Counted from the first letter of the stretch, positions 10,614-40,430 are shown. The stretch: 40,430 bases of DNA from Nitrospirota bacterium (GCA_016212185.1 JACRGX010000025.1:1-40430); one strand, 5' to 3'. Notes: generated from the letters alone by a model not told the origin. Numbers and translations: made by a program.

Positions 10614-10656
10614 TGTATACTTACGATGCGAGCAATCATTAAGGTGTATTCTTTGT

Positions 10657-10662: not shown

Positions 10663-10687
10663 ACAGTAAAAACAAACAAAAAACAAT

Positions 10688-13025: not shown

Positions 13026-13042
13026 TGATGTGTTCTTAATAA
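13002..13042 (+). terminator. Perfect 15-bp hairpin at the end of the GT9 gene
   Basis: TTATTAAGAACACAT (13002-13016) pairs perfectly with ATGTGTTCTTAATAA (13028-13042) around an 11-base loop. The stop codon at 13023-13025 lies in the loop. The stem is AT-rich and no U run follows. It may moderate readthrough, protect a processed 3' end, or be an inserted palindrome, since the operon clearly continues. Confidence 0.5.
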
Positions 13043-13054
13043 AAATACGAAGAA

Positions 13055-16364: not shown

Positions 16365-17653
16365 AGAATATTCTTATCCTTGACACAGGCAAAGAATGGG
16401 GCGGCGGCACCAACAGCCTGCTTGAGCTCCTGCGCAGAATAGACAAAAAAAATTATAAATTCACAGCTCTGTTTTATCATAATTATATCAAACCGGGAGA
16501 AGCTGATATAAAGACCGAGATTGAGAAATTAGGCATAAACTTCCTCTTATTAAAGTATAGAAGGCAGTCTTTATCAGCAAAGATATTGAAAGAAACTGGA
16601 AGGACATTATTATTTTTCAGCGAAGGACTGAGAAAGCTGTACGTCTTTTCTATTGAATATTTTTTCAGGATAGAAGAAGATGCAGCGCGGATTGCAAGGA
16701 TTCTTAAGGAATTCAACATAGACCTCCTTTACATGAACAACCAGCCGTCCAGCAATCTTGAGGGCATTATTGCAGCAAGAATGGCAGGCATTAAGTCACT
16801 GCTTCACGGCAGAATTGAGACAGAGCTTAATTTTTTTGAGGTCAAAGCCGTAAATAAATGGCTTGACAAAATGATATGTGTCTCAGAAGGGGTCAGGGAG
16901 AGTTTTCTGAAGCAGGGAATTGAGCCTTCAAAGTGCATCACTGTTTATAACGGGATAGATGCCGGGATAATTCCGACAGTACCGCCTGATAGAATAAGAC
17001 AGGAACTTGGAATAAAAGGGGATGAACTTTTGATTGGCTCGGCAGGCTCACTTGTAAAAAGGAAGCGGTTTGCTGATTTGATAAAGGCAATGGCAGATAT
17101 TAGGAATCAGTCTACGACTCATGGGGAGTCAGAAGCCAAAATGGAAAGTTTAGAAAATCCCCCCTTACCCCCCTTTGACAAAGGGGGGATGGGGGGATTT
17201 TCTAATAAAATTAAGTGTGTCATTTTAGGCGATGGGCCCGAGAGGGAACAGCTACAGAAAGAGATAGAGAAAAACAAGCTGAATGACTATGTTATGCTTA
17301 TAAATTTTAAGTCTGATGCAATATCTTATATGGCTGCAATGGATTTATTTATTCTGCCCTCTGAAAGGGAAGGATTCCCGCGGGTGATTCTTGAGGCGAT
17401 GCTTATGGGAAAACCTGTGATTGCATCAAGGATTGCAGGGCCTCTGGAGCTTGTCGTGGATGGCAGGACAGGATTTTTATATAACACCGGCGACACAAAG
17501 GCACTCTCAGGCTATATTACAGAACTTGTATCAGAGCCTTCCTTGAGGAAATTTCTGGGTGGTGCCGGCAGAAAAAGAGTAATTGAAAATTTCTCAATTG
17601 AAAAATATGCCGGTGAAGTAGAAAACATCATCACTGAGGTATTGGAACAGTGA
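16361..17653 (+). CDS. GT4-family glycosyltransferase with an NPPLPPFDKGG-type insert
   Basis: The 430-residue GT-B enzyme begins LILDTGKEWGGGTNSLLELL, with the acceptor loop. VYNGIDAGIIP (about 199-209) is the linker, IGSAGSLVKRKRFADLI opens the donor domain, and EGFPRVILEAMLMGKPVIAS (about 338-357) has the E-x7-E motif. About 30 residues between the donor-domain start and CVILGDGPEREQL are foreign. They contain ENPPLPPFDKGGMGGF, the translation of a 56-bp palindrome at 17150-17205. The frame is open throughout, so the enzyme may tolerate the insert in a surface loop. It overlaps both neighbours by four bases. Confidence 0.85.
   Translation: MKNILILDTGKEWGGGTNSLLELLRRIDKKNYKFTALFYHNYIKPGEADIKTEIEKLGINFLLLKYRRQSLSAKILKETGRTLLFFSEGLRKLYVFSIEYFFRIEEDAARIARILKEFNIDLLYMNNQPSSNLEGIIAARMAGIKSLLHGRIETELNFFEVKAVNKWLDKMICVSEGVRESFLKQGIEPSKCITVYNGIDAGIIPTVPPDRIRQELGIKGDELLIGSAGSLVKRKRFADLIKAMADIRNQSTTHGESEAKMESLENPPLPPFDKGGMGGFSNKIKCVILGDGPEREQLQKEIEKNKLNDYVMLINFKSDAISYMAAMDLFILPSEREGFPRVILEAMLMGKPVIASRIAGPLELVVDGRTGFLYNTGDTKALSGYITELVSEPSLRKFLGGAGRKRVIENFSIEKYAGEVENIITEVLEQ
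17150..17205. repeat. Coding palindrome translated as NPPLPPFDKGG
   Basis: TTAGAAAATCCCCCC and GGGGGGATTTTCTAA form 15-bp arms around an inner CCCCCCTTT/AAAGGGGGG stem. The same amino-acid string family (NPPLPPFxKGGxGGF) is known to me as a repeat in many bacterial genomes. Here it is inside a glycosyltransferase gene. Confidence 0.85.
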
Positions 17654-18864
17654 TATATGTAATTCTGACTTATATTTTTTCCCCTTTATTGTATTTGTTT
17701 ATTGCCTTAAAAAAGAAGGGAACCATTACAAGTATCATTGTAATCCAGACTGCCAAAATCGGCGATTTAATCTGTTCCACACCTGTGTTCTGCGAAATCA
17801 GGAAAAAATACCCGGAGGCTCATTTAACTGTCATGGTAAACCCTGTAACACAGGGGCTTCTAAAACACAACCCTTATGTGAATGAAATCATCACCATTAA
17901 GGCGGCTGACTATATGGGGTTCAGGGGGAAATTGAAATTGTCAAACCTGATATGCAAAGGCAATTATGATATTGCAGTTTGTCTTAATCCCAATGTGCCG
18001 TTTGCAGTTGCATTATTCTGGGCTGCGGTGCCGATCAGATTGTCTGTAATGCCTGATTTTGCAGGACTAACCTTCAGGCTTGCATCAGTGTTTTTTACTT
18101 CTCTTGAAAGTCATGTAGGGGGAAGGCTGGTAATGGAGACATATATGCTGATGCTGAGAGGAATCGGGATTGAAAGCAATAATTTATCAAAAGAGGTTTA
18201 TAAATCAGGGGGGGCGGATAGAAAGGTACAGCAAATTTTACAAGAGGACAAGAACATTATTAAGGTCATTCCCATGAAAACGGGAATCCAGAAAACAGAT
18301 GAACTGGATTCCTGCCTCCGCAGGAATGACAATGTATGTTTATCCTGCGGACAAACCAATAAACCCCTTATCGGCATTGCGGTAAGCAGCGGGAACAAAC
18401 TCAAAGAATTAGGGGCAGGAAAAATCGCTGAGATTGCAAATGGACTCTTAGACAATCTTGATGTTACGGTGACGCTTATAGGCTCTTATCAGGACAAGGA
18501 TGCGGCGCACAATATAATTGATTGTATTACCAAAAAAGACCGTATCGTTGATGCGACTGGCAGCTTAAATTTATCAGAGCTTCCTGCGCTTATTGAAAGG
18601 TTATCGCTTTTTATCGGCGTTGATACCGGGATTGCATACATGGCGGATGCCTTGAATATTCCCGTGATACATCTTGCAGGGCCGATAGACACCACGGAGC
18701 AGCGGCCTATTGGGGGAAAAATCACAATTATCCAGCACAAACTGCCATGTGTTCCCTGCACTTATGTTTTTAAAGCTGCATATGCTTGTAAAAGGGACGA
18801 CAGAATGTGTGTGACGTCAGTGAGTGCTGTGGAAATTGTTGAGGCTGTGAAGAAACTAATATAA
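17650..18864 (+). CDS. GT9 heptosyltransferase-like protein with a VIPxKxGIQ-type insert
   Basis: The third GT9 protein starts at a GTG overlapping the previous stop (GTGA). A hydrophobic segment at about 3-19 could anchor it in the membrane. IVIQTAKIGDLICSTPVF (about 31-48) is the GT9 signature. LFIGVDTGIAYMADALNIPVIHLAGP (about 318-343) is the donor motif. A late cysteine-containing stretch (LPCVPCTYVF) resembles WaaQ-type enzymes. Residues about 206-227 (VIPMKTGIQ...DSCLRRNDN) are encoded by a 66-bp palindromic element of the GTCATTCC...GGAATGAC family. At 404 residues it is long because of this and the N-terminal segment. Confidence 0.83.
   Translation: MIYVILTYIFSPLLYLFIALKKKGTITSIIVIQTAKIGDLICSTPVFCEIRKKYPEAHLTVMVNPVTQGLLKHNPYVNEIITIKAADYMGFRGKLKLSNLICKGNYDIAVCLNPNVPFAVALFWAAVPIRLSVMPDFAGLTFRLASVFFTSLESHVGGRLVMETYMLMLRGIGIESNNLSKEVYKSGGADRKVQQILQEDKNIIKVIPMKTGIQKTDELDSCLRRNDNVCLSCGQTNKPLIGIAVSSGNKLKELGAGKIAEIANGLLDNLDVTVTLIGSYQDKDAAHNIIDCITKKDRIVDATGSLNLSELPALIERLSLFIGVDTGIAYMADALNIPVIHLAGPIDTTEQRPIGGKITIIQHKLPCVPCTYVFKAAYACKRDDRMCVTSVSAVEIVEAVKKLI
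18265..18330. repeat. GTCATTCC...GGAATGAC palindromic element inside a GT9 gene
   Basis: GTCATTCCC is followed by GGGAATCCAG, CTGGATTCCTGC and GCAGGAATGAC, forming nested stems. The in-frame translation is VIPMKTGIQ and SCLRRNDN. The same element type appears in intergenic form at 30286-30363. Confidence 0.85.
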
Positions 18865-18866
18865 GA

Positions 18867-18935
18867 TAGTTTAAACCGTTAAAATAGTTCAAAAAGTTCA
18901 ACTTTGAACGATTTAAAACAATATTGAACTGTTTA
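18867..18935. repeat. Nested GTTCAA/TTGAAC inverted repeats before the ligase gene
   Basis: AGTTTAAAC...AGTTCAA on the left mirrors TTGAACTGTTTAAACT on the right, with a further GTTCAA-CT-TTGAAC palindrome between. The gap 18865-18949 could be an attenuating hairpin or operator that gives the ligase its own control. Confidence 0.55.
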
Positions 18936-18949
18936 AACTTGATAAAACT

Positions 18950-20242
18950 ATGCAAAAAGAAAACTTAAATGCTTTTGAATCTGTTTTAGAGAAAACTCTG
19001 CATATATCGTTATTCATTTATCTTTTCCTTATCATATTCCCCCATACGACCACCCTGCTTGAAATTGCCTTCTGGCTGGCATTTTCTTCTTGGGCAGTAT
19101 TAAGATTAAAATTTAGAAAACATGAGCCCTTTATACCTTTAAATCAAATTACCATTTCCATTTTCATATTCATTCTTATCGCTCTTATTGCCTCTCTTGC
19201 CGGAATGGACCCCATTGATAATCTAAAGCAGTTTAAAGGGGGGCTTTTGATACCGCTGAGCCTGTTTTTAATTATTGTCACAGAATATGATAACTGTGAG
19301 AAAATCAAGGAACTTCTGATTGCGCCTGTTTCTGCCTTTGCCATCTATACAATGCTGGTAGTAAATGAGTCATTTATCTGGGGACTCTCATATTACTGGG
19401 ATCATTTCCTTGAAAAATATACTGTATGGCTTGACGGCTATACAGGGAAGGGCATTACTATCTTTCCGCTTTCATTAGGCTATTTTTTACTTATCCGCAC
19501 CAATCTGCGCTTTTTATTGCTGATTTTTATTTTTTTAGAATTTGCAATTATGGTGGGCGTTAGAGATATTTCCTGCTTTGGAAGCATTGCTTTTGTGATA
19601 TTGTTAGGAGCTTTATTTGCCAGACCTGAAATCTATAGATTTTGGATTAGGGCGTTTATTCTTACGCTGTTATTTAGTGGCGCAATAGTTTTTTATATGC
19701 ATAAAGACAACCCGGTTATGGATGAATATAAAGCCAAACTATATCAGATTACAAATCTCTCCGATGAGATAAAGACAGGCGGTTTCTCCAATAGAATCCC
19801 TATGTGGAAAGCGGCTGTAGACATTATAAAAGACCGGCCGCTGTTAGGCTATGGCTGGGGCATGAAAAAATATCCTAAAATACTCGCAGAAGAAAAATAT
19901 TTAAATAAATGGAAGACCGATAAACCGGAAGTATACAACCTTTTTGCCCCTCTTAAAGGCAAATACTTTCTTCCGCCTCATAACTTTTTTCTGGAAATAG
20001 CCGTACAAGTCGGACTATTGGGACTTATATCAGGCATTGCTTTTATTGGAATTTATTTGTTTCAGTTGATCAAAATCTCTATAAGATCTAATTCTGATAT
20101 GGAGCGCAATTTTTTCATAATCCTTATTGCAGGAACAATTCTTGGCTTTATAATACCAAATCTGATGAGTGATAAATTAGGCGGTATCAGCGTAAAGATT
20201 TTATTTGTCGTTCTGGGCGCCGGCATGGCTAAAAAAGAGTAA
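18950..20242 (+). CDS. O-antigen ligase/polymerase family membrane protein (WaaL-like)
   Basis: The 430-residue inner-membrane protein has about eleven to twelve hydrophobic segments. A long periplasmic loop at about 260-345 carries NRIPMWKAAVDIIKDRPLLGYGWG and PPHNFFLEIAVQVGLLGL, the signature of the Wzy_C/WaaL family. The conserved His of PPHN is present. Such proteins join a lipid-linked glycan to lipid A-core or polymerise repeat units. As the last gene of the glycosyltransferase run, without a flippase or Wzy in view, a ligase role is more likely but not proven. Its 3' end overlaps the convergent rsmA gene by about 42 bases. Confidence 0.85.
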   Translation: MQKENLNAFESVLEKTLHISLFIYLFLIIFPHTTTLLEIAFWLAFSSWAVLRLKFRKHEPFIPLNQITISIFIFILIALIASLAGMDPIDNLKQFKGGLLIPLSLFLIIVTEYDNCEKIKELLIAPVSAFAIYTMLVVNESFIWGLSYYWDHFLEKYTVWLDGYTGKGITIFPLSLGYFLLIRTNLRFLLLIFIFLEFAIMVGVRDISCFGSIAFVILLGALFARPEIYRFWIRAFILTLLFSGAIVFYMHKDNPVMDEYKAKLYQITNLSDEIKTGGFSNRIPMWKAAVDIIKDRPLLGYGWGMKKYPKILAEEKYLNKWKTDKPEVYNLFAPLKGKYFLPPHNFFLEIAVQVGLLGLISGIAFIGIYLFQLIKISIRSNSDMERNFFIILIAGTILGFIIPNLMSDKLGGISVKILFVVLGAGMAKKE

Positions 20243-24191: not shown

Positions 24192-27100
24192 TCAACAGAC
24201 TTCTTTCACCTCTCCTATATGTGTAAAGACAATAAATGACTTCACATTTTTTGTCCCAAAAATCTGGCTCACTGCCTTTTTATATATGCCGAGCTGGAAG
24301 GAATATTCTTTGAGCAAATAATCAATCTCATTTTCTTTCACAGGGAAGGTCTTGTAATCATAAACATTGTAACAGCCGTCTTTAACTATAATTCTGTCTA
24401 TCCTTCCTGAGTAAACGACGGTTTTTAGCGTTTGGCGTTCAGCGTTCGGCGATAGTTCCAAAACAAAGGGAAGCTCTGCAAAGGAATTTTTCTGAGGCAT
24501 GATGATATCCTGCCATATGCCCTTTTGCTTAAGAAGGGCAATATCCCCTTCAATAACTGAGAGCAGGCTTTTCTGCTGTTCTTTTAAAATTACATCAGGC
24601 ATAAGCAGTTGTTCAGCCATGCGCCTGATGTTACTTTCTGTAAATAACTTTTTTGAAATTCCTTCAAAAATCCTGTGGATTACATCACCTAAAATCAGCC
24701 AGTCTTTGCCATGCCTGCGTTTTACAGTTACAGCGTCGGCAACCTGCATCCAGCCGGGACTTTCCGGAGTGGAAGCTGTGTAAGTGTCAAAGGGTCCAGT
24801 TGCATAAGCACCCATGCCTTTTCTTAATTCTTTGACACTTTGATACTTTAACGCTTTGATACTTTTTATATTTTCGCCTGCATATTCTTTTTTATACAAA
24901 GCAGTAAACTCTTCCTCTGACATTACGGACAGCCCCTCAATCTGTGCGTTCATTTGATAACTGTCGTTGTCCCTGCAGAGCCCAAGCCCCTGTTTAAGAA
25001 ACATGAGAAAACTATGATTACCTGTCTCATTCCAGCATCCTGTGAGAAAGAGCGCATCTTCAGCCCTTGTGACAGCGACATAGAAAAGCCTCTTTTGCTC
25101 TTCTATCTCTTTTTCAAGATGCTCCATAAAATCAGCATCCTGTTTTCTGATTGCTGATTCAGGCTCGTATATGAAAAAGAGCCGTCCGTTTTTTTCAGAT
25201 ACAAGGCTGTCGGCTGTCTTTAATTTGAACTCTTCTTCAATGCCCGGGACAAAGACGACGGGGAATTCAAGCCCTTTAGATGCATGAATGGTCATTATCT
25301 TCACTGCATCCATGCCCTCTGTATTGACATTTGCCTTAGGCTCATCGTCTTTGTCATATGTGTGCTGAAGGAAATCGCGCAGTTTAATCAGGGATCTGCC
25401 GTCTGCCTCCAGTTCCTCTATTATCCGAATGAACTTTTTAATATTTGCCCTTCGCTGAGGTTCATGAAAATATTTCCAGGCCCCTGTCTTGGAAAGCGCT
25501 GTTTCTATTAATTCCGCAACTGGCAAGTGCGGGAGTTGTGAAAGTAATTCCTGCAAAGATGCCCCGGTAGCTTTTGTCTCATCTGCAGTCATTAATTTTG
25601 AAAACAGGCAGTCCCCTTCTGTGCGCATTGCCTTTATAATTACAGCTTCATCAAGCAGAAAAAGAGGGCTCTTTAAAAGGACATAAAGGCTGTAATCGTC
25701 CTTTGGATTTGAAAGAAAATAAACGAGCGCCCTCAGCATTGCCGTTTCAGGCTCCTGATAAAATCCAATGCCCTTGACAGCGACAAATGGTATGCCGTAA
25801 TGCCTGAGCGCCTCCTCGTATTTCTTCAAATGGGTTCTTTTTCTTAAAAGGACGGCAAGGTCTATGTATTTGCAGGTCCTCTGGGCTTTTGTCTTTCTGT
25901 CAAAAATCACATGGCTGTTTATCAAACACTGTATTCTTTTGGCAATGAGTTCAGCCTCGCTTTTTTTTGTTTGTGATATAGGCTCCTCTTTGTTTTCAAG
26001 CAGTAACAGCTCTACCTTTCCGCTCTGAGACGGCTCCAGTCCCTCTGTGAAACGGGCAAAATCCAGACGGCTGTAACCTGTCTTCCAAAAGGGGCTGTCT
26101 TCCCGTGCATCCATTAGCTTTGGAAAGACATGATTTGTGAAATTTATTATTGCAGGAAGGCTTCTAAAGTTTTCCTTTACCTCTTCATAATAAAACTCTT
26201 TGCCGAGCCATGCGTTCAGTTTTTCTTTCGCCCGGCTGAAAAGCTCAACATTCGCGCCCCTGAAAAGATATATGGACTGCTTCCCGTCGCCTACAAGGAA
26301 TATTGTCGGTTTTATGCCCTCTTCCCTTTTTGCGCCGAGACCGGAGCGCCACTCTTCTGTAAGGCTGTCAATTATTGCCCACTGAAAATTGTTTGTATCC
26401 TGAAATTCGTCAACAAGGATATGGTCTGTTTTTTCATCAAATGCATAGAGGATATTGGCCCACTCAGGATTTTCCATAAGCAGTTTGTATGCAAGATATT
26501 CAAGGTCGCTGAAATCAAGAATTCCCCCCAGCCGTTTTTTATTCCTGTATGTCTCATTGCATTTCATAAATATGCTTTTTATTCTCTGCGCCCTTTCTGA
26601 ATGTTCTTCAAGTTTTCTCCCGGTCCAGTACAAATACATTTTTAGCGCCCAGCCCTGATAATCTGTAATGTTTTTAAAGCTTGCGTGCGGGCGCTTCCTC
26701 GGCTCTTTGCTGCCGGTTAAAAAATATTCTTCTGACATGGCAAGCCTGCCGCTGTCTTCAAAAACTTTATCATAATCTTCACTTGCCGTCCCGGCGCCGG
26801 GCCAGTTTTTAAGTTCTTCTATCAGCGAGGCGGGAACGGGCAGGGGACATACAAGTTCAGCCTCTATGGAGAACGGCCGCTTTTCATAAAGATAATTTAT
26901 TATACCTTTCAGGTCTGCAAGCCCTTTGAAACCTTTTTCACTGATGGTCTGAAGGATCAGATTATAGTCATCATCTTTTTTCCGGCTTCCTATGCCCATC
27001 AGGATTTCATAGATGATTTCTTCCCATGCAATACGCGAGTTGAGCGCTTCTTCTATCCTGTAATTGGGGTCAATCTCCGCTTCAAAAGAAAAACGCCTGA

Positions 27101-27380
27101 GCAGTGTGCCGCAGAAGGAGTGTATGGTTGTAACCCTCATTAATGACACCCTCTCAATTAATTTACTGAATAATTCAGTTTCTTCATCTTTCAGTATCCT
27201 TAAAATCCTTTGCTTCATCTCGGCAGCGGCCTTATCTGTAAAGGTAATGGCTAAAATCCGCTCCGCCTCAACGCCGTTTTTAAGCAGGGAGATATAGCGC
27301 CTTGCAAGCTTCTCTGTCTTTCCCGAGCCTGCAGGCGAGGAAATGATGACGCTTTTAGTTATGTCAAGATAGTTGTTCAT
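24192..27380 (-). CDS. addA: AddA-like helicase-nuclease (UvrD/RecB family)
   Basis: This is the helicase subunit of a double-strand-break resection complex. Superfamily 1A motifs are in order: Walker A SSPAGSGKTEKL (14-25), ITFTDKAAAEMK (about 44-55), HILVDEFQDTNNFQW (about 308), GDGKQSIYLFRGA, TIHASKGLEFPVVFVPG and RLFYVAVTRAEDALFLTG. The C-terminal PD-(D/E)XK nuclease has His in LGDVIHRIF, Asp in YSGRIDRIIV and the DYK of VYDYKTF. At 1062 residues it is of AddA size. Two repeat arrays are embedded in frame: octamers at 24830-24869 (residues about 837-850) and heptamers at 24428-24448 (about 977-984, just before GRIDRI). It follows addB after 139 bases. Confidence 0.9.
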   Translation of the reverse strand: MNNYLDITKSVIISSPAGSGKTEKLARRYISLLKNGVEAERILAITFTDKAAAEMKQRILRILKDEETELFSKLIERVSLMRVTTIHSFCGTLLRRFSFEAEIDPNYRIEEALNSRIAWEEIIYEILMGIGSRKKDDDYNLILQTISEKGFKGLADLKGIINYLYEKRPFSIEAELVCPLPVPASLIEELKNWPGAGTASEDYDKVFEDSGRLAMSEEYFLTGSKEPRKRPHASFKNITDYQGWALKMYLYWTGRKLEEHSERAQRIKSIFMKCNETYRNKKRLGGILDFSDLEYLAYKLLMENPEWANILYAFDEKTDHILVDEFQDTNNFQWAIIDSLTEEWRSGLGAKREEGIKPTIFLVGDGKQSIYLFRGANVELFSRAKEKLNAWLGKEFYYEEVKENFRSLPAIINFTNHVFPKLMDAREDSPFWKTGYSRLDFARFTEGLEPSQSGKVELLLLENKEEPISQTKKSEAELIAKRIQCLINSHVIFDRKTKAQRTCKYIDLAVLLRKRTHLKKYEEALRHYGIPFVAVKGIGFYQEPETAMLRALVYFLSNPKDDYSLYVLLKSPLFLLDEAVIIKAMRTEGDCLFSKLMTADETKATGASLQELLSQLPHLPVAELIETALSKTGAWKYFHEPQRRANIKKFIRIIEELEADGRSLIKLRDFLQHTYDKDDEPKANVNTEGMDAVKIMTIHASKGLEFPVVFVPGIEEEFKLKTADSLVSEKNGRLFFIYEPESAIRKQDADFMEHLEKEIEEQKRLFYVAVTRAEDALFLTGCWNETGNHSFLMFLKQGLGLCRDNDSYQMNAQIEGLSVMSEEEFTALYKKEYAGENIKSIKALKYQSVKELRKGMGAYATGPFDTYTASTPESPGWMQVADAVTVKRRHGKDWLILGDVIHRIFEGISKKLFTESNIRRMAEQLLMPDVILKEQQKSLLSVIEGDIALLKQKGIWQDIIMPQKNSFAELPFVLELSPNAERQTLKTVVYSGRIDRIIVKDGCYNVYDYKTFPVKENEIDYLLKEYSFQLGIYKKAVSQIFGTKNVKSFIVFTHIGEVKEVC
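24428..24448. repeat. Three degenerate heptamers inside addA
   Basis: GCGTTTG, GCGTTCA and GCGTTCG run in tandem, in frame, just upstream (in protein terms) of the nuclease aspartate. They encode part of SPNAERQTLK. Confidence 0.75.
24830..24869. repeat. Octamer array inside addA
   Basis: CTTTGACA, CTTTGATA, CTTTAACG and CTTTGATA, followed by a more divergent CTTTTTAT, run in tandem with an 8-bp period. They are read in frame within the linker before the nuclease domain of AddA (IKSIKALKYQSVKE). Confidence 0.75.
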
Positions 27381-27519: not shown

Positions 27520-30261
27520 TCACGCTCCGCCTCCTTTACACAGTGCCCGGTGCTGACAGTATCTGCATTTATTTTCTTTAACCTCTGAAGGCATAAACAT
27601 TCCCTCTCTCATTTTTTGCACAAGCTCCTTAGTAATCTGTAATGTATCCTGTATGAACTCCTCCATACCCTGTTTTTTTGCAGGATACCATGCAATGCCG
27701 CCGTCTTTTAAAGAATAAAAGCCTGCCTTCTCCACTATGCCTTCATTTTCTTTCTGCCACATGGCTGAATAAAGAGGAAGCTGGAGGCTGTCTTTGTCAA
27801 TCCCGCCGGTCTTGTAATCCAGAAGGATAAAAGAACAGGGTTCAAGGGTTCGTGGATTCAAGGATTCAAGTGGTTGTTTTTTTGACCCCTTGACCCCTTG
27901 ACCCCTTGACCCCTTTATATCAACCCTGTCTATTTTGCCCTTAAGCCTCAGCCCGTTAATCTCTGCTTTCAGTCCCTTCTCAGATACATGCGGCATAAAG
28001 CCCTGCATTTTAATTTCCGCCTCCTGCGCTTCAATCATCGGTATCAGCCGCTGAAATATTTCCCCTGCGACCTTTGACCAGAAATCGCCGAGCGGGAATT
28101 CCGCAAGCGTTAATTTAAGTCCCTGCATAATCCGGCTATTTATATCATTAAGTCCGATATCTCCGTCTTTATATAAATATTCCATCACTTTATGGGCAAG
28201 CTTTCCCCAGAGCATTGCCTCTACTTCAAACTTAGGCGGTTTTTCAATTTCAAGCCTGAGGACTTTTTCAATATAGAATCTAAGCGGACATTTCCTATAT
28301 GCCTCTATGTCAGTAACGCTTATAAAGACATCCTGCCCGAAGCGTTTTGACAGCAGGTTTTTTATTTCTCTTTTTTCCGGCAGTTCTCCGTTCCATAAAA
28401 TCCCTGTAAACTCTTTTTGCTCAGAGAAACCCTCTGCAATCAGGCGCTCTTCATCCGATGGGAGATTTAATTCCGGCATTGCAAGGCTCTGCCCCCAGTC
28501 AAGAAACGGCGATGGAAGAAAGGGCTTGTCGCCTTCGGCAGAAGGACATGAAAAATAAGGCTCAAGGAGCGGTAAGTTCATGAGCCGTTTGAAATACCGC
28601 TTCTGCCTGTCCAAATAATATTCAAGAAACGGCAATCCAAGCGCCTTTTTGACTTTTTCAGGCAGTATGGGGTCAATACTGGGTTTGGACGGGAATTCGT
28701 CTTCAACCATGCCTCCCAAAAACAGCGCTTTTGATTCATGCCCTGCCGCAACTTCATATGGCACAACCCTTACACCGTCTTTGTCAATATCCGCGCCGCT
28801 TAATCCGGTGAACAAATGCCTCAAATAAATTCCGGCTTCTTTACTGCCTGCGCCAGCGCCAGATATTCCGGAGAATTGCCTTAACTCTGAAAATAGACTG
28901 TTTATAGCTTCTGACAGGGACTCATCAAGAGACTCCGGGAAACCGAATTTGTTCAGGGCATTTTCCATATTGTCTGTATAAGAAGCGAGGTCTTTTGCAG
29001 ATTTTATTTCATCAAGAATCTCCATAACTGACCGTATTCCTTCCTGAACTTCAGCAATCAGGCTTTCCTCTTCTTTTGTGAATTGCTCACCGCTGAAATC
29101 AAGCAGGACTATTTTCATTGAAAGCCATGCTTGTTTCCCTTTTAAAATACCCGCCTTGTTTGCATATGCAACTGTCCACTCCTTAACAACAGCGGGAATT
29201 TCAGGGAAATGCGCTGAGGTAAGAAAGGAAAGAAACTCATTCCTTGGATAGTCGTCTTCAAGGCATGTAATCATATCTTTAACCGTTGTAACTGGAGCTG
29301 AATTTGATAAATCATAGCCTTCAATGCTTAACGTTAGCCCGTATTTTTTAAAGACCCTTCTGAGCATCGGCAGATACTTTTGAAACGCCGGGAAGGAAAT
29401 AATTATCTCCTGCGGACTTGTGCCTTCAAGGATTAAGCCCTTTACCCCTTTTGCAATTCCCTCTACCTCATCCTCCATTGAGGGGTATGTGAAATAACCT
29501 GAACCTCTTTTTGGGAGGCCTGCCTTAATTGTATGCATCTCAGATAGTTCTGGGTTTTGTTCAAAGAACTTTAAAAATCCGGCGTCTTTATCCAGAAGCG
29601 CAATAAATCTGCCTGTCTTCCCGATGAGCGCTTTTATAATTGCAAGTTCCAGAGGGGTTGGATCAAAAAAACCATCAAGCACAAGCAGGGAGGGATTTAA
29701 ATTCTCATTTATAAGAGGAATGCTTTCTTTTGCCGCTGACTCATAATTAATAAGCCCTTGTTCTTCAAGCCGCTTCTCATAACTTTCAAGAATCTCCATT
29801 GCATTTACGGCGCGTGCCATTGCCTTTTCTTCAAAGATAAGTTCCTTTATTTCCGCTTTAATCTGAGAAAGGTCTTTATCCGTGATGTAGTGCCTGATTT
29901 TATAAAGAAGCTCTGATAAAAGAACCGCATAACCGATATTTTTTTCTTTGAAGGATTCACCTATCAAAAGAGGTCTTATGCCGCTGGAGATGATTTTTTT
30001 TCTGCCGTAGGTTTCATAAAGATTTATGTACAATTGTTTTAAAGGGAAAGACTGGAAAGGGATATAGGCAGTTTTTTTGTGTACGGTCTTCAGATAAGAG
30101 AAAAACCCTTTTTTTGCCTCTGCCTGGCTGAAAGAATTAGGCGTAATGTACAGGACGCCGGAATAATTACCCGCAGGGCAGGAATCAACGATTTTATTGA
30201 AGATGTTTGCCTTTTTATCCCTTGCGCCCGGAGGGGCGATAAAGACAGTTCCCTTTTTCAC
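27520..30261 (-). CDS. addB: AddB-like subunit (inactive helicase plus iron-sulphur nuclease)
   Basis: The 913-residue partner of the AddA-like gene is much shorter than Bacillus AddB but similar in layout. The N-terminal GTVFIAPPGARDKK replaces a canonical Walker A, so ATPase activity is doubtful. The C-terminal PD-(D/E)XK nuclease has HKVMEYLY, the GKIDRVD aspartate and ILLDYKTG. Cys in YRKCPLRFY together with Cys899, 902 and 908 (CRYCQHRALC) form the 4Fe-4S pattern of AddB-type nucleases. Between GKIDRVD and LLDYKTG is an in-frame insert (about 780-810) encoded by eight 8-bp repeats. It splits the catalytic motif region, presumably at a hairpin loop. It is the promoter-proximal gene of the pair. 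Confidence 0.87.
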   Translation of the reverse strand: MKKGTVFIAPPGARDKKANIFNKIVDSCPAGNYSGVLYITPNSFSQAEAKKGFFSYLKTVHKKTAYIPFQSFPLKQLYINLYETYGRKKIISSGIRPLLIGESFKEKNIGYAVLLSELLYKIRHYITDKDLSQIKAEIKELIFEEKAMARAVNAMEILESYEKRLEEQGLINYESAAKESIPLINENLNPSLLVLDGFFDPTPLELAIIKALIGKTGRFIALLDKDAGFLKFFEQNPELSEMHTIKAGLPKRGSGYFTYPSMEDEVEGIAKGVKGLILEGTSPQEIIISFPAFQKYLPMLRRVFKKYGLTLSIEGYDLSNSAPVTTVKDMITCLEDDYPRNEFLSFLTSAHFPEIPAVVKEWTVAYANKAGILKGKQAWLSMKIVLLDFSGEQFTKEEESLIAEVQEGIRSVMEILDEIKSAKDLASYTDNMENALNKFGFPESLDESLSEAINSLFSELRQFSGISGAGAGSKEAGIYLRHLFTGLSGADIDKDGVRVVPYEVAAGHESKALFLGGMVEDEFPSKPSIDPILPEKVKKALGLPFLEYYLDRQKRYFKRLMNLPLLEPYFSCPSAEGDKPFLPSPFLDWGQSLAMPELNLPSDEERLIAEGFSEQKEFTGILWNGELPEKREIKNLLSKRFGQDVFISVTDIEAYRKCPLRFYIEKVLRLEIEKPPKFEVEAMLWGKLAHKVMEYLYKDGDIGLNDINSRIMQGLKLTLAEFPLGDFWSKVAGEIFQRLIPMIEAQEAEIKMQGFMPHVSEKGLKAEINGLRLKGKIDRVDIKGSRGQGVKGSKKQPLESLNPRTLEPCSFILLDYKTGGIDKDSLQLPLYSAMWQKENEGIVEKAGFYSLKDGGIAWYPAKKQGMEEFIQDTLQITKELVQKMREGMFMPSEVKENKCRYCQHRALCKGGGA
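27839..27870. repeat. Four octamers (GGTTCAAG type) inside addB
   Basis: GGTTCAAG, GGTTCGTG, GATTCAAG and GATTCAAG run in tandem. They form one half of the insert between two nuclease catalytic residues of AddB. Confidence 0.8.
27882..27913. repeat. Four perfect TTGACCCC octamers inside addB
   Basis: TTGACCCC is repeated four times without change, 12 bp after the previous octamer array. It is read in frame as part of a Gly/Ser/Lys-rich insert. Confidence 0.85.
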
Positions 30262-30525: not shown

Positions 30526-31548
30526 CTAATATTCATTAAGTAAATTTGTAATTAATGCTGTCATGGTTTCTTTTTCTTTCGGTTTGCTCTCAGCAATTAA
30601 AAGGGCTATGGCTACCAGAGTATTATCATTGATTTTAGCCTCGCCGGTAGATTTCAGCAGGTAATTATTCTTGTGCAGGAACAATATAAACAGAAACGAG
30701 CCTATGCGTTTATTGCCGTCAATAAATGGATGATCCTTTATTATGAAGTAAAGCAAATGGGCTGCCTTTTCTTCAATGCCGGGATATAATTCTTTCCCTC
30801 CAAAGGTCTGATATATTGTAGATAAAATGCTTTCAAGTCCTTTTTCCCGTTCAATCCCGAATAATTCTGAAGCTTCTTTTTTGTCAATCAAATCCTTTTT
30901 TAATGATTCAATAGCTTTTTGAGCCTCTACATATTTTATATGTCCGGCAGGTTTTGATATGCCTTTGGAAATGAGATTAATATTTTTATTGTCATACTGC
31001 TGTAAGAGTATCCATGACTTTGCATAGCCTGTAATAATCGCCAAAAGCCCAACAGCTTCTTCTCTGGTAAGGACAGTATCAGCAGTTTTTTGCAAAAGAG
31101 CCACAGCCTTTTCAAGTTCTTTTAGTCTGGTCTGCTGTTGTTCTGTTAACCTTTTTTCATTTAACGAAAAACCCTTAACGATATGTTCCTTTAAGACCTT
31201 TGTCGCCCAGATGCGGAATTGAGTGGCGCGCCTTGAATTGACTCTGTAACCGACCGAGATAATAACATCAAGGTTGTAATATTTTGTTTTGTAGATTTTT
31301 CCATCTGCGGCAGTATGTGCAAAAATTGCACATACTGAATTCTCCTCTAATTCTCTATTCTTGAAGACATTATTAACATGCTTGGTGATGACACTTCTTT
31401 CGGTCTTGAAAAGTTCCGCAAGTTGCTTCTGTGTAAGCCAGACCGTATCCTGCTCCAGTTTTACATCAAGCCGGGCTTCCTTGTCATCAGTTGCGTAGAT
31501 GACAATTTCGCCATGCTTGGGTGAGATGTTTTTATTTTTCTGGGTCAT
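30526..31548 (-). CDS. RhuM-Fic/Doc fusion protein
   Basis: The N-terminal two-thirds (about 12-130) matches the RhuM 'virulence protein' family, with a winged-helix-like DNA-binding portion (VWLTQKQLAELFKTERSVIT) and the YNLDVIISVGYRVNS signature. A helical stretch (about 130-160) follows. The C-terminal Fic/Doc domain has HPFIDGNKR at 273-281. Asp-Gly-Asn-Lys-Arg follows the Doc form (HxFx[D/N]xNKR), which phosphorylates targets, rather than the Fic form HPFxxGNGR, which adds AMP. Its target is unknown. It appears as a single gene without an antitoxin partner, and its DNA-binding domain may regulate its own promoter, where an inverted repeat is found. Confidence 0.88.
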   Translation of the reverse strand: MTQKNKNISPKHGEIVIYATDDKEARLDVKLEQDTVWLTQKQLAELFKTERSVITKHVNNVFKNRELEENSVCAIFAHTAADGKIYKTKYYNLDVIISVGYRVNSRRATQFRIWATKVLKEHIVKGFSLNEKRLTEQQQTRLKELEKAVALLQKTADTVLTREEAVGLLAIITGYAKSWILLQQYDNKNINLISKGISKPAGHIKYVEAQKAIESLKKDLIDKKEASELFGIEREKGLESILSTIYQTFGGKELYPGIEEKAAHLLYFIIKDHPFIDGNKRIGSFLFILFLHKNNYLLKSTGEAKINDNTLVAIALLIAESKPKEKETMTALITNLLNEY

Positions 31549-34673: not shown

Positions 34674-34783
34674 GGGTGCGACATTTTTTGCACCCAGTAG
34701 GTGCTGCAATTCACGCCTACAGCCTTTATTCCCAGACTTTTGCAGAGATTTTAAAAATTTTGCTATAAAAATTTGTCGCACCC
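34674..34783. repeat. 110-bp element with GGGTGCGACA inverted ends
   Basis: GGGTGCGACA (34674-34683) and TGTCGCACCC (34774-34783) are perfect inverted ends. Inside are GCACC-CAGTA-GGTGC and GTAGG...CCTAC stems. It may be a small non-autonomous mobile element or a structured RNA. No clear target-site duplication is visible. Confidence 0.6.
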
Positions 34784-35188: not shown

Positions 35189-35941
35189 ATGAAAAAGTTG
35201 CTTGAAAATAAAGTGGCTGTCATCAGCGGCGCTGCAAAAGGGATAGGCCGGGCTGTTGCTATAGAATTAGCCGGTGAAGGCGCGAATATAAGCTTTAATT
35301 TTCTAAAAAGCAATAAAGAGGCAATGGATATGGAGAAGGAAATAAAGGATTTGGGTGTGAATGTTAAATCATTTCAGGCGGATATTAAAAACTATGATGA
35401 TGTGAAGTCATGGGTGGATAATACAAAGGAGTTATTTGGAGGCATTGATATTGTAATTAACAATGCCGGCATAATCAGGGACAGGGCGCTGGCCCTTATG
35501 GCTCCTGATGACTGGCGTGAAGTGATTAATACTAATTTAGACGGGACCTTCAATCTTACGAGGGCGGCTATTGTGACATTAATAAAACAGAAGAACGGCA
35601 TTATAGTCAATATCAGTTCAGTAAGCGGCATTACGGGCATGCCCCGGCAGACTAATTATGCGGCTTCAAAAGCAGGAATAATCGGGTTCACCAAATCTCT
35701 TGCCAAAGAAGTTGCGCCTTATGCGATCAGGGTTAATGCGGTAGCTCCCGGTTTTATTGAAACGGATATGCTTAAAGATTTAAAAGAAGAATACAAAACT
35801 CAGATGATAAAACACATACCACAGGGCAGATTAGGCAAACCAGAAGAGGTGGCAAAAGTTGTAAAATTTTTGGTTAGCGATGATGCGCGTTATATTACCG
35901 GGCAGACAATAATTATAGACGGCGGCATGAGTACGGTATAA
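35189..35941 (+). CDS. fabG: 3-oxoacyl-ACP reductase (FabG family)
   Basis: This is an NADPH-dependent short-chain dehydrogenase reducing the 3-keto group of acyl-ACP. The cofactor motif is SGAAKGIGRA (13-22, an S variant of TGxxxGxG). NNAGIIRD is at 91-98. The catalytic set is Ser143/144, Tyr157 and Lys161 (NYAASKAG). RLGKPEEVAKVVKFLVSDDA and ITGQTIIIDGGMS near the end are FabG hallmarks. The 250-residue length is normal. It opens the plus-strand cluster with two to three ketosynthases, an ACP and a dehydratase, and so provides its ketoreduction step. No clear ribosome binding site precedes the ATG. Confidence 0.92.
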   Translation: MKKLLENKVAVISGAAKGIGRAVAIELAGEGANISFNFLKSNKEAMDMEKEIKDLGVNVKSFQADIKNYDDVKSWVDNTKELFGGIDIVINNAGIIRDRALALMAPDDWREVINTNLDGTFNLTRAAIVTLIKQKNGIIVNISSVSGITGMPRQTNYAASKAGIIGFTKSLAKEVAPYAIRVNAVAPGFIETDMLKDLKEEYKTQMIKHIPQGRLGKPEEVAKVVKFLVSDDARYITGQTIIIDGGMSTV

Positions 35942-35945
35942 GAGA

Positions 35946-37178
35946 ATGAGCAAGAGAAGAATTGTAATAACAGGGCTTGGGGTAATTGCGCCTAACGGCA
36001 TAGGGAAGGAACAATTCTGGGGCGCATTGAGAGAAGGCCGCTCCGGGATTAAGCCGATTAGCCGGTTTAATACAAGCAGGTTTAAATGTAAATCTGCAGG
36101 TGAGATATCTGATTTCAAACCAACGTATTTTCTGGGTCATAAAGGTTTAAAGGATATTGACAGGACTACAAGGCTGCTGTGTTCTGCCGCAAAATTAGCC
36201 ATAGAAGACGCAGGATTAAATATTAACTATAAAAATACTGATGATTTCGGGGTCTGCACGGGAACTACTTTGTCTGCGCTCTGGAATATTGTTGAGTTTG
36301 GTAAAGGACTGATAGAGGATGGTCCGCTTTTTACTGATGCCGCGCTTTTCCCGGGAATGGTAATAAATGCAGCTTCAAGCCAGGTTTCAATCCGGTTCAA
36401 TATACAAGGGTTTAATACGACTGTTTCTACAGGATACAGTTCAAGTATAGATGCATTGAAATATGCAATAGATTTTATCAGATTGGGACGGATTAAGGCG
36501 GTTTTAGTAGGCGGGGTGGAGAGTCTTTCTCTGGCAAGTTTTACAGGGTTTTATCGTCTGGGTTTTTTTGCCGGGATAAATGGCGAGGAATTATCCTGCC
36601 CATTTGACAGACGGCGAAATGGAATCATTTTAGGTGAAGGCGCGGCAGTTATAGTCGTGGAAGATGAGGAGTATGCGAGGGAAAGAGGGGCCAGTATTTA
36701 TGCTGAAATTAAAGATACAGGCAATTGTTTTGATTCCTACAGGATGGGTAAGTACGAACCCGGAGCAAAAGGATTAAAGGAAAGCATAAAAAGGGCAATA
36801 GAAAATTCCGAATTGGACATTAAAGACATAGATTATATAAGTGCAGCGGCAAACTCTGTGCCTATGCAGGATAAGTTAGAGACAAAAGCCATAAAGGATG
36901 TTTTCGGCAAATATGCTTACAATATCCCGGTGAGCTCCATCAAGTCAATGATAGGCGAGACATTCAGCGCAGGCGGTTTGTTCCAGATGGCCGCTGCCAT
37001 AGGCAGTACGGTTTATGGTTTTATACCGCCTACTGTTAATTACAAGGTAAAGGATAATGATTGCAATCTTGATTATGTAGCAAATAAATCCAGAACAGTC
37101 AGGGTAAGAAATGTATTGATTAACAATTGCGGACCCGGCGGAAGTAATGCGTCGCTAATCATATCCAAATATCAATAA
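35946..37178 (+). CDS. Ketosynthase-like protein lacking the catalytic triad (chain-length-factor type)
   Basis: The 410-residue protein has the FabF-type ketosynthase fold along its whole length (RIVITGLGVIAPNGIG at the start, NNCGPGGSNASLII at the end). All three catalytic residues are replaced. The active-site Cys is Tyr164 in STGYSSS, the first His is Ala301 in SAAANSV, and the second His is Glu338 in KSMIGE. Lys333 is kept. Full-length, coherent loss of activity is what one sees in the KS-beta or chain length factor of type II polyketide synthases, which pairs with an active KS. The active partner is probably the gene at 37893. It follows fabG by four bases. Confidence 0.85.
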   Translation: MSKRRIVITGLGVIAPNGIGKEQFWGALREGRSGIKPISRFNTSRFKCKSAGEISDFKPTYFLGHKGLKDIDRTTRLLCSAAKLAIEDAGLNINYKNTDDFGVCTGTTLSALWNIVEFGKGLIEDGPLFTDAALFPGMVINAASSQVSIRFNIQGFNTTVSTGYSSSIDALKYAIDFIRLGRIKAVLVGGVESLSLASFTGFYRLGFFAGINGEELSCPFDRRRNGIILGEGAAVIVVEDEEYARERGASIYAEIKDTGNCFDSYRMGKYEPGAKGLKESIKRAIENSELDIKDIDYISAAANSVPMQDKLETKAIKDVFGKYAYNIPVSSIKSMIGETFSAGGLFQMAAAIGSTVYGFIPPTVNYKVKDNDCNLDYVANKSRTVRVRNVLINNCGPGGSNASLIISKYQ

Positions 37179-37200
37179 AAAGGAGATTGTAAATCAAGCT

Positions 37201-37440
37201 ATGCCAAACAGGTTAGAAGAGGAATTGAGGCAATTAGTTTCAAATGTTACTGAGGTACCGGTAGAAAAACTGACGCTTGATGCAGACTTTTTCAAAGATT
37301 TAGTGATTGATTCATTAAAGGCGATTGAGATTGTAGCCGCCTTTGAAAAAAAGTACCGGATTATTATCCCTGAAAAAGATATCCCTAATATCAGAAATCT
37401 GAGACAGATAATAGAATATACTAAGAATATAAAGCTATAG
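37201..37440 (+). CDS. Acyl carrier protein
   Basis: The 79-residue carrier protein has the phosphopantetheine attachment site at Ser38 in LVIDSLKAIEI, the D-S-L motif. Four helices are visible in the usual spacing and the overall charge is acidic to neutral. The acyl chain grows on the arm of Ser38. The predicted ribosome binding site (GGAG near 37182) lies rather far upstream of the ATG. It is placed between the chain-length-factor-like gene and the dehydratase, so it is dedicated to this cluster rather than to general fatty acid synthesis. Confidence 0.93.
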   Translation: MPNRLEEELRQLVSNVTEVPVEKLTLDADFFKDLVIDSLKAIEIVAAFEKKYRIIIPEKDIPNIRNLRQIIEYTKNIKL

Positions 37441-37456
37441 TCCGAGGGTTGGTGTA

Positions 37457-37900
37457 ATGATTTTTGATAAGGAAAAAATCAAATCTATTTTGCCGCATCG
37501 GGAGCCGTTTCTTTTTATTGACGGGGTTATTGAGATTAATGGCGCTGAAAAGGTTGTTGCAGTCAAACACATAGAGAACGATGAAAGCTTTTTTGAAGGA
37601 CATTTCCCCGGCAGACCTATAATGCCGGGTGTTTTAATGATAGAGGCCATGGCGCAGGCTTCAATAATCCTTTATTACATTGCCAAGCCTGAAATAGTTA
37701 AGACGAACCCTGATTATTATCTCGGCAATGTCAAGGCAGAGTTTATTTTACCGGTATATCCGGGGGATAAACTCATTATAGAAGTACGCGGTGTAAAGAT
37801 TCTGGACTATGCTGCAATTACGGATTGTGTGATAAAGGTGAAGGATAAAATTACGGCTAAGGCAAATCTTGTTTTTGCCGTTAGAAGTAAGAATGAATAA
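37457..37900 (+). CDS. fabZ: 3-hydroxyacyl-ACP dehydratase (FabZ family)
   Basis: This hotdog-fold dehydratase removes water from 3-hydroxyacyl-ACP to give the trans-2-enoyl form. ILPHREPFLFIDGV (11-24) and the catalytic GHFPGRPIMPGVLMIEAMAQ (48-67), with His49 and Glu63, are complete. The 147-residue length is normal. No enoyl reductase is seen in the window. If the cluster truly lacks one, the products would keep conjugated double bases of the polyene kind (that is, double bonds), but the reductase may lie downstream or elsewhere. It overlaps the next gene by eight bases. Confidence 0.93.
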   Translation: MIFDKEKIKSILPHREPFLFIDGVIEINGAEKVVAVKHIENDESFFEGHFPGRPIMPGVLMIEAMAQASIILYYIAKPEIVKTNPDYYLGNVKAEFILPVYPGDKLIIEVRGVKILDYAAITDCVIKVKDKITAKANLVFAVRSKNE

Positions 37901-39104
37901 CAGAAGAGTTGTAGTAACGGGAATCGGAGTTGTTTCGTCTGTGGGAATAGGCAGAGATGAGTTTTGGAAAGCCGTAATAAACGGCAAATCAGGGATAACA
38001 AAGGTTGATTCATTTGACACCAGTGAATTCAGGTGTCACTATGCCGGTGAGATTAAGGACTTCAGACCGGAGGATTTTATTGCAAGGAGGAAAGTGCAAT
38101 TCCTTGGCAGGACCTCACAATTAGCCATATCTGCCGCTGCCCTGGCGTTAGAAGATGCCGGATTATCTCCGAAGGATATTAATAAAAAAGGGGCAGGCGT
38201 TATTATCGGAACAACTATGGGTGAAAAGCCTTTGGAGGAATCCATTGATATCTGGTTTATGGCAGGGGCAGACAATATGAGCAAGACAAAAATACTTCAG
38301 TCTTCGGCGAATAATATACCTGCTAATGTTTCCAATTATTTTAAACTTTTGGGACCTAATTATCTTATTCCAACGGCATGTGCGGCAGGCAATTATGCCA
38401 TAGGTTACAGCTTTGACTTAATAAGAAAAGGGGATTTGGACTATGCTGTAGCAGGCGGCGCTGATTCATTCTCCAAGCTTGCATTCAGCGGCTTTCACCG
38501 CATCTATGCAATGTCCCCTGAAAAATGTCAGCCGTTTGATAAAAATAGAAAAGGCATGATGGTCGGCGAAGGAGCAGGAATTCTTATCCTTGAGTCGCTG
38601 GAGTCTGCATTAGAAAGGAACTCAGGCATATATGCAGAAATAGCCGGTTATGGACTTAGCTGTGATGCCTATCATATGACTGCCTCTCAGGTAGATGGTA
38701 TTGAAAAGGCAATGCGCAAGGCTTTAAAGGATGCAGACGTTGAAGAAAGAGAAGTTGATTATATAAACGCTCATGGAACAGGCACTCAGGGCAATGATAA
38801 GAATGAATGTGCTGCCATTAAGAGGGTTTTTAAGCAAAAATTTAAAACAGTTCCTGTGAGTTCTATAAAATCAATGCTGGGTCATCCTATGGGCGCTGCT
38901 TCTGCGATTGAGGCGCTGACCTGCTGCCTTGCAGTTAAAGAAAATATCATTCCGCCGACTATAAATTTTGAAAATACGGATCCAAACTGTGACATAGATT
39001 GCGTTCCCAACAAAGCAAGAGTAAAGAAGGTGAATATCGCATTAAATAATGGATTTGCTTTTGGAGGCAATAATTCTTGCCTGGTGATTAAGAAGTTTCA
39101 TTAA
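37893..39104 (+). CDS. Active 3-oxoacyl-ACP synthase (FabF/KS-alpha type)
   Basis: This is a decarboxylating condensing enzyme. The ATG at 37893 starts MNNRRVVVTGIGVVSSVGIG and overlaps the fabZ stop. Catalytic Cys163 is in TACAAGNYAI, His294 in NAHGTGTQGND, Lys326 and His331 in SIKSMLGHPMGAA, and the C-terminal FGGNNSCLVI closes the fold. At 403 residues it is standard FabF length. It is the likely active partner of the residue-less ketosynthase at 35946, whose N-terminus is very similar in layout (FRCHYAGEIKDFRPEDF versus FKCKSAGEISDFKPTYF). Such similarity suggests they arose by duplication. Confidence 0.92.
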   Translation: MNNRRVVVTGIGVVSSVGIGRDEFWKAVINGKSGITKVDSFDTSEFRCHYAGEIKDFRPEDFIARRKVQFLGRTSQLAISAAALALEDAGLSPKDINKKGAGVIIGTTMGEKPLEESIDIWFMAGADNMSKTKILQSSANNIPANVSNYFKLLGPNYLIPTACAAGNYAIGYSFDLIRKGDLDYAVAGGADSFSKLAFSGFHRIYAMSPEKCQPFDKNRKGMMVGEGAGILILESLESALERNSGIYAEIAGYGLSCDAYHMTASQVDGIEKAMRKALKDADVEEREVDYINAHGTGTQGNDKNECAAIKRVFKQKFKTVPVSSIKSMLGHPMGAASAIEALTCCLAVKENIIPPTINFENTDPNCDIDCVPNKARVKKVNIALNNGFAFGGNNSCLVIKKFH

Positions 39105-39130
39105 TAATATTAGTTATACAACTCAAAATT

Positions 39131-40430
39131 ATGACAAGAGAAAGAAGAGTGGTGATAACAGGGATAGGTCCTATAGCTTCCACAGGAATCGGGAAGGATG
39201 TGTTTTGGGAAGGGATTTTAAAAAAAAGGGTCGGTTTAAGATTAGAGGAGATTAATATTGACGGGGAAGAGTGGGATAAATTTTATTTTCATAAGGTAGA
39301 GGATTTTGATATTGAAAAATTTAGTATTAAGAAGGATATAATTGAGAGCATCCAGACATGGAAAAAAGGGAAGGAAGACAAAGACCTTTTATATTTATTG
39401 GCGGCAGTTAAATTAGCCATTGATGATAGTAGAATTTCTTACGATGAAGAGAATAATGATATTGGATTATTCTTAACAGCTGAACATCCCGGGTTTGAAC
39501 CTTTCTGTGAAGCAATAATCAAAGAAACTACGGCATATCTGGAAAAAAATCCATTTAATAGTAATTTTTCTAAGCATAAATTGTTTAGGCATGTGTTTGA
39601 GCATTTTTCCATAAAAGGTTACGACCTTCAAAGCTTTATGTATCTTTATTTCGTTGCCAGGGCATTTGGGATTCACGGATATTCTTTATTTAGCAACAAT
39701 GCTTGTGCGTCGGGTTTATTTGCTATGGAATCCGCAGCAAGACAAATTAGATACGGCGGAAGTAACATTATTTTGCTTGCAGGGGTAGATGTCGCTAATA
39801 CCATGTTTAAACATTTGTGGTTTAAAGAACAGAACCTTTATGCTGAGGATGGAAGGATAAAACCTTTCTCAAAAAAAGCCGATGGTATAGTTCTTGGCGA
39901 TGGAGCTTCAGCACTGGTTTTAGAAGAAATGGACTGTGCGTTAAATAGAAAAGCACATATCTATGCAGAATATCTTGGTGGGGGATTTTCACTGGAGGGC
40001 TGGAAAGTGACTGTGCCAATGATAGGAAGCTTATCGTATCAGGATGCAATAAAAGGCGCTTTAAAACAAACTCGTTTGAAGCCGGAGGATATTGATTTAA
40101 TAGTTCCCCACGGAGTGGCGATTAAAGTAACCGATGGATATGAAGCAAAAGCCATTACAGATATTTTTGGTAAAAACAATCAAAAGCCTTTCATAACGGC
40201 ATTTAAACCGTATGTGGGGCATAATCTTGGAGGAAGCGCTATTTTAGAAAGTATTATTCTTTTGCTATCTATGGAGAAAGATTTAATTCCGCCGGCATTG
40301 AATTGTGATGAGGTGGAACCGAAGTATAATATTGATATAGTAAGAGACTTTGTTCCGTATTCTTTAAATACAGCAATGAAGTTATCCTGCGGCTTCGCAG
40401 GGTATAATGCCGCGGCAATATTCAGGAAAC
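39131..40430 (+). CDS. Third, divergent ketosynthase (runs off the right edge)
   Basis: The frame is open for 433 codons from ATG 39131 to the window end, with no stop. It starts MTRERRVVITGIGPIASTGIG and has NNACASGLFAMES with catalytic Cys192, VPHGVAIKVTDGYEA with His327, and KPYVGHNLGGSA with Lys359 and His364. SCGFAGYNAAAIFRK near the edge is the normal C-terminal motif, so only a few residues are missing. The second His context differs from classical HGTGT (PHGVAI), and residues about 35-160 are unusual and highly charged. It is probably active but with a distinct substrate, such as a starter- or chain-length-specific role. Confidence 0.85.
   Translation, partial: MTRERRVVITGIGPIASTGIGKDVFWEGILKKRVGLRLEEINIDGEEWDKFYFHKVEDFDIEKFSIKKDIIESIQTWKKGKEDKDLLYLLAAVKLAIDDSRISYDEENNDIGLFLTAEHPGFEPFCEAIIKETTAYLEKNPFNSNFSKHKLFRHVFEHFSIKGYDLQSFMYLYFVARAFGIHGYSLFSNNACASGLFAMESAARQIRYGGSNIILLAGVDVANTMFKHLWFKEQNLYAEDGRIKPFSKKADGIVLGDGASALVLEEMDCALNRKAHIYAEYLGGGFSLEGWKVTVPMIGSLSYQDAIKGALKQTRLKPEDIDLIVPHGVAIKVTDGYEAKAITDIFGKNNQKPFITAFKPYVGHNLGGSAILESIILLLSMEKDLIPPALNCDEVEPKYNIDIVRDFVPYSLNTAMKLSCGFAGYNAAAIFRK

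Follow-up and report, generated by a model that had tools for sequence, protein, structure and literature searches.

Results

Gene content of the locus

The window (the whole stretch of DNA analyzed, 40430 bp) is the complete contig C25 of a Nitrospirota genome and closes with an operon of six genes in the order KR-CLF-ACP-FabZ-KS-KS3, all on the plus strand (35189-40429) and with intergenic gaps of -8 to +26 bp:

35189..35941, plus strand: KR, FabG-type 3-oxoacyl-ACP reductase, 250 aa (TIGR01830, 304.8 bits, cut-off 297.75)
35946..37178, plus strand: CLF-like KS partner, 410 aa, with Tyr164/Ala301/Glu338 at the catalytic Cys/His/His sites
37201..37440, plus strand: acyl carrier protein (ACP), 79 aa (PF00550), with phosphopantetheine Ser38
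37457..37900, plus strand: FabZ-type 3-hydroxyacyl-ACP dehydratase (DH), 147 aa (NF000582, 131.3 bits, cut-off 113)
37893..39104, plus strand: active ketosynthase (KS), 403 aa from ATG, with Cys163/His294/Lys326/His331
39131..40429, plus strand: KS3, divergent ketosynthase, 433 aa to the contig end, with Cys192/His327/Lys359/His364

Pfam and NCBIfam agreed on the family assignment of all six genes, which confirmed the positions and families of the tight plus-strand KR-CLF-ACP-DH-KS-KS set described in a first-pass annotation of this DNA; the gene content also bore out its remark that the operon holds no enoyl reductase (ER). The KR scored far under the cut-off of the flexirubin SDR model FlxB. 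For KS, the ATG at 37893 was preferred over the TTG of the ORF list at 37869, which lies upstream. KS3 is present without its last few codons and, the window being a whole contig, the right edge of the cluster is the end of the assembly and not that of the cluster.

An Rfam search of the window returned no matches, and the matches of a promoter scan were no more numerous than in shuffled sequence. Upstream of the KR gene, an intergenic inverted repeat, GGGTGCGACA ... TGTCGCACCC, with arms about 100 bp apart, lies at 34674-34783. Elsewhere, the window carries a surface-glycan cluster (9303-20242; UDP-glucose/GDP-mannose-type dehydrogenase, glycosyltransferases and O-antigen ligase) and a protein with RhuM-family and Fic domains (30526-31548), which adjoins a UvrD-type helicase (24192-27380) and a PD-(D/E)XK nuclease protein (27520-30261).

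CLF and its relation to the active ketosynthase

The losses of Cys, His and His reported earlier for CLF (Tyr164, Ala301 and Glu338) proved exact to the residue. The CLF family was aligned in 78 rows, from 77 loci and PDB 9s5h_C. Of these rows, 76 have another residue, most often Tyr or Phe, in place of the catalytic Cys, none has His at the first catalytic His site (one has a gap), 77 carry Glu at the second and the remaining one carries Asp, and all 78 retain the Lys, with KSMxGE as the family signature. The catalytic KS rows of the same alignment keep Cys-His-Lys-His without exception (74/74). Since the pattern is fixed across the CLF family, the losses are not due to chance or sequencing error. 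At two loci (L131 and L132, CLF at about 9995-11230), the active-site Cys is kept and both catalytic His are gone, with Ser and Glu in their place.

The active KS adjoins a KS homologue without the catalytic Cys, the arrangement by which a KS-CLF type II synthase is recognized. Best PDB matches of KS and CLF were 9s5h_B (1.5e-143) and 9s5h_C (1.8e-109), respectively, which occur in equal numbers within a single entry; the second KS match was the ishigamide KS 6kxd_A (1.9e-106), and both KS matches ranked above every FabF. The path distances of CLF and KS co-varied over 18 pairs with r=0.875, a value as high being obtained in 0/5000 permutations. The match of both proteins to one solved complex and the co-variation of their distances strengthen the earlier proposal that CLF is a structural partner of the active KS, and we infer that it would be the non-catalytic partner of KS in this organism.

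Phylogeny and separation from primary fatty acid synthesis

CLF, KS, KS3 and FabF formed four separate groups in a quick tree of 158 rows and in a careful tree of 56 rows, the latter built without the very long rows held by the former (Streptomyces CLF-like proteins and aryl polyene (APE) KSs). In the 56-row tree each group took one side of a branch, with supports of 100/100 (CLF), 95/98 (KS), 100/100 (KS3) and 100/99 (FabF). The first-pass annotation had named a KS phylogeny as a check, with a placement of all three ketosynthases among ordinary FabF as the adverse outcome; that outcome is excluded, since both trees separate CLF, KS and KS3, and all three fall outside FabF.

KS3, which the first-pass annotation listed as a third KS, is no plain second KS but belongs to a separate deep clade of its own (100/100) on a long stem. 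The protein carries additional residues ahead of the catalytic Cys, and its Cys-His-His is intact. Its motifs are altered (EGWKVT for DAYHxT, PHGVG for AHGTS and KPYVGHNLGG for KSMTGHLLGA) and its homologues measure 428-463 aa. The AlphaFold2 model of KS3 (pLDDT 85.2, pTM 0.90) has a regular KS fold; compared with FabF and with ketosynthases from KS-CLF pairs, it gives a TM of about 0.8 and 23-27% identity.

The host genome (2.33 Mb, 97.6% complete) carries housekeeping fabG-acpP-fabF genes followed by rnc on contig C74, a single FabD-type acyltransferase and a single KASIII, which is FabH (TIGR00747, 452.6 bits, above the curated cut-off). An additional KS on contig C57 scored above the FabF cut-off. 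The operon itself has neither a FabF-clade KS nor the usual neighbors of fatty acid synthesis (FAS), and the earlier claim of a dedicated system apart from ordinary FAS is upheld by the trees and by the separate fabG-acpP-fabF, fabH and fabD genes. All operon proteins belong to FAS-type families, as would a spare copy of primary FAS left by gene duplication, but the separation of all three ketosynthases from FabF, the fixed pattern of residue loss across the CLF family, the location of an FAS set elsewhere in the genome and the patchy distribution described below make this disfavored reading highly improbable.

Distribution and conserved neighborhood

CLF homologues with 44-82% identity were collected from 80 loci, nearly all in Thermodesulfovibrionia (Nitrospirota) and Omnitrophota. 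Across the phylum, 37 of the 346 genomes carry CLF and six carry KS3; five of these six also carry CLF and, in the sixth, KS3 stands at the start of a contig. The distribution of the operon is patchy, CLF being absent from the genus and family mates that were sampled (84-87% complete).

In relatives, the genes follow the order KR-CLF-ACP-DH-KS, then KS3 or a thioester reductase, often a phytoene-desaturase-like flavoprotein, and then genes for a 7TM histidine kinase (HK), a second kinase and a response regulator with an HD domain; Omnitrophota operons have the same kinase linkage. The nearest KS3 relatives (L076 and L123) have no phytoene desaturase beside KS3. In the host genome, contig C32 ends inside a 7TM-HK gene whose fragment aligns from residue 257-259 of the HK of relatives, and it continues with a 691-aa GAF HK and a response regulator with an HD domain, in the order seen in relatives. 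Reversed, C32 thus appears to be the continuation of the operon from C25, a join made by synteny and not by overlapping sequence. The downstream kinases and the HD-domain response regulator probably control the operon. The 7TM kinase is PrsK-like, with a score below the cut-off; binding of a retinal-like polyene aldehyde was considered for it and rejected, as its membrane part has no conserved lysine.

Other arrangements of CLF genes were also observed. A CLF-KR-DH trio occurs at 14 Omnitrophota loci (including L082, L085, L088, L094, L100, L101, L104, L126 and L133), nearly always without a neighboring KS or ACP, beside riboflavin genes and nusB, and the four sites in its CLF read Phe/Asn/Lys/Glu. 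Another Nitrospirota lineage of CLF, with 46-54% identity (L087, L098, L102, L114, L118, L131 and others), has a PAS hybrid kinase downstream and, upstream, a SAM methyltransferase of about 430 aa with an unassigned N-terminal half and no NCBIfam match. The CLF of L107, from a record titled Planctomycetales, is nested among those of Omnitrophota and its neighbors match Omnitrophota loci; the record is probably a mislabelled MAG.

Relationship to the anammox ladderane locus

In FabF numbering, 9s5h_C carries Val163, Asn298, Tyr300, Gly302, Lys328, Glu333 and Gln342, the residue row that PMC2649909 prints for kuste3606 in Table 2. On the strength of this published signature, 9s5h was taken as the KS/CLF of the anammox ladderane locus, being by inference the kuste3605/3606 pair or a close orthologue. 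The window CLF groups with 9s5h_C (100/100) and the KS with 9s5h_B (95/98), that is, with the proteins so read. The best PDB matches of the ACP were 7qv0_D, 9s5i_E and 7auf_A, and the top matches of FabZ include 7qv0_A, from the same entry as the best ACP match.

The genes kuste3603-3608 encode ACP, FabZ, FabF, a non-canonical FabF, a phytoene desaturase and a radical SAM protein (PMC4790861). Among the recurrent annotated neighbors in the loci of relatives, no radical SAM gene of the kuste3608 type was found. The ladderane-type affinity proposed in the first-pass annotation stands as kinship of KS, CLF, ACP and FabZ (matches to 9s5h, 9s5i and 7qv0) but does not extend to the radical SAM gene, and ladderane as the product is not supported, given the lack of such a gene among the annotated neighbors. 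Ladderane biosynthesis outside anammox bacteria would accord with the structures taken as the anammox set ranking first or among the first for these four proteins, and with the phytoene-desaturase-like genes that follow KS3 in many relatives. Against it, besides the missing radical SAM neighbor, the host genome sequence, in which the C25-C32 gap could still hold one, yielded no operon-type phytoene desaturase, and Desulfotalea, which has a syntenic cluster, makes no ladderanes; we consider ladderane biosynthesis here very unlikely.

KS3 and the position downstream of KS

The slot after KS may hold either KS3 or a thioester reductase (TIGR01746/PF07993) in relatives. Among the Nitrospirota operons closest to that of the window, no locus was seen with both. 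Complete loci comprised one with both genes, 13 with KS3 only, six with the reductase only and 11 with neither (Fisher p=0.09, the loci not being independent), and the single locus with both is from Omnitrophota. Mutual exclusivity of KS3 and the thioester reductase is hence suggestive but not proven. Path distances of KS3 against those of CLF and KS gave r=0.47-0.58 over 13, below the CLF-KS value, and in the careful tree the L060 KS3, from Nitrospirota, falls among those of Omnitrophota; both are as expected for an exchangeable part. At L071 (13131-14562), KS3 and a methyltransferase lie in the opposite orientation to the other operon genes, which is consistent with a movable chain-end cassette.

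A joining role for KS3 would fit an anaerobic hydrocarbon pathway in which the head-to-head joining of polyunsaturated fatty acids, with decarboxylation, yields a C31 polyene. PMC2649909 suggests such a route for the syntenic Desulfotalea cluster and reports that Desulfotalea makes C31:8/C31:9 hydrocarbons, and the FASII clusters of this hydrocarbon maker are related to the present operon. The likeness to the Desulfotalea cluster is drawn from published description, however, and the only KASIII-type protein in the 97.6%-complete genome is FabH, which makes this pathway a rather doubtful candidate. The known OleA-type hydrocarbon route was rejected as absent, since the genome has no second KASIII.

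KS3 could otherwise serve the first rounds of an aryl polyene or other polyene pigment pathway, with the KS-CLF pair in charge of the main elongation, like ApeR beside ApeO-ApeC. APE clusters likewise hold a KS-CLF pair and a second KS (PMC8358021), KR, DH and ACP are common to both, and Iga11, a polyene KS, is related to the KS of the window. The aryl polyene type put forward by the first-pass annotation was nevertheless not sustained by comparison with the E. coli APE locus, the conserved neighborhood having no aryl-CoA ligase, acyltransferase, MMPL/LolA protein, thioesterase or second ACP around KS-CLF. In addition, the FabZ is not ApeI-like (PF22818, 21.8 bits, cut-off 28.5) and the E. coli APE KSs joined none of CLF, KS and KS3 in the 158-row tree, where their branches are long. 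A pigment of this kind is thus an unlikely product.

Discussion

Proposed pathway

We favor, with a probability of about 0.6, a reading of the operon as a dedicated type II synthase for a polyunsaturated or polyene chain that stands beside primary FAS and has an exchangeable chain-end enzyme. The active KS would pair with the Cys-less CLF, which would shape the chain pocket, and the growing chain would be carried by the ACP. The one housekeeping FabD would presumably supply the malonyl units, and FabH or the FAS pool the starter. Each round would involve both the FabG-type KR and the FabZ-type DH and, since the operon has no ER, the double bonds would be retained, giving a polyene or polyunsaturated acyl-ACP; an unusual or polyunsaturated acyl chain, as first suggested from the sequence, is a plausible product. 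KS3 would be a catalytically equipped, separate condensing enzyme at one end of the pathway, most likely for release or chain joining, a role suggested by the thioester reductase that holds the same slot in sister operons. Against this dedicated polyunsaturated-chain synthase, a housekeeping ER could still act despite the lack of one in the operon, E. coli expressing kuste3603-3608 made no new fatty acids (PMC4790861), and the exclusivity of KS3 and the reductase is weak over all complete loci.

A bolder extension, which we regard as speculative and improbable as a whole, would see in KS3 the founder of a novel class of ketosynthases that terminate type II chains through C-C bond formation, as a cassette interchangeable with the thioester reductase. 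The elongation core would be shared with anammox ladderane loci, and the whole would form an anaerobic system under sensor-kinase control that makes membrane lipids of polyunsaturated or polyene type across Nitrospirota and Omnitrophota.

To our knowledge, the enzymes that build ladderanes are unknown and anammox bacteria are not genetically manipulable. The kindred KS-CLF-ACP-FabZ core found in non-anammox phyla, which has a KR of its own and lacks the radical SAM gene, offers a simpler system for assaying the basic chain product. The slot for KS3 or the reductase opens chain release to direct testing, and the conserved linkage to kinases suggests environmental control of the lipid.

Comparison with known systems

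The anammox locus kuste3603-3608, with structures 9s5h and 9s5i, shares with the present operon ACP and FabZ in the gene set (the window ACP matches 9s5i_E) and a CLF that has the Lys328, Glu333 and Gln342 of kuste3606 and has lost Cys and the first His; with relatives of the operon it shares a phytoene-desaturase-like gene. The CLFs are only about 40% identical, however, and the window operon differs in its own KR, the KS3 clade, the linked two-component genes and the absence of a radical SAM neighbor. Broadly similar clusters outside anammox bacteria have been on record since 2009 (PMC2649909). Those of Desulfotalea and Geobacter, compared by description only, have divergent FabF and phytoene-dehydrogenase-like genes, whereas KS3 and kinase linkage go unmentioned in the accessible text of that article.

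APE clusters (ApeO-ApeC plus ApeR) resemble the operon in KS-CLF plus an extra KS, KR, DH and ACP, but the operon is without APE-specific genes and the KSs are not kin beyond the superfamily. The highly reducing (HR) type II PKS (ishigamide Iga11/Iga12 and Streptomyces kin) likewise combine KS-CLF, ACP, KR and DH without an ER. The window KS groups with Iga11 and a Streptomyces HR-type KS (95/98), so that a polyene-group KS stands here with KR, DH and ACP and no ER, as in that class. The window CLF, in contrast, lies on another branch, loading and amide-forming genes are lacking, and KS3 and the kinases are extra.

Earlier catalogues already list KS-CLF hits for Omnitrophica and Nitrospirae and, for Omnitrophota, 'ladderane' calls (PMC10132072, PMC9902471). 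As far as their accessible text goes, these catalogues cover the same phyla and KS-CLF-type hits but list hits and expression, leaving the operon, KS3 and the neighbors undescribed. New, as far as searched, are the KS3 clade and its alternation with the thioester reductase, together with a CLF family that bears the Glu signature in two phyla and the link to two-component genes.
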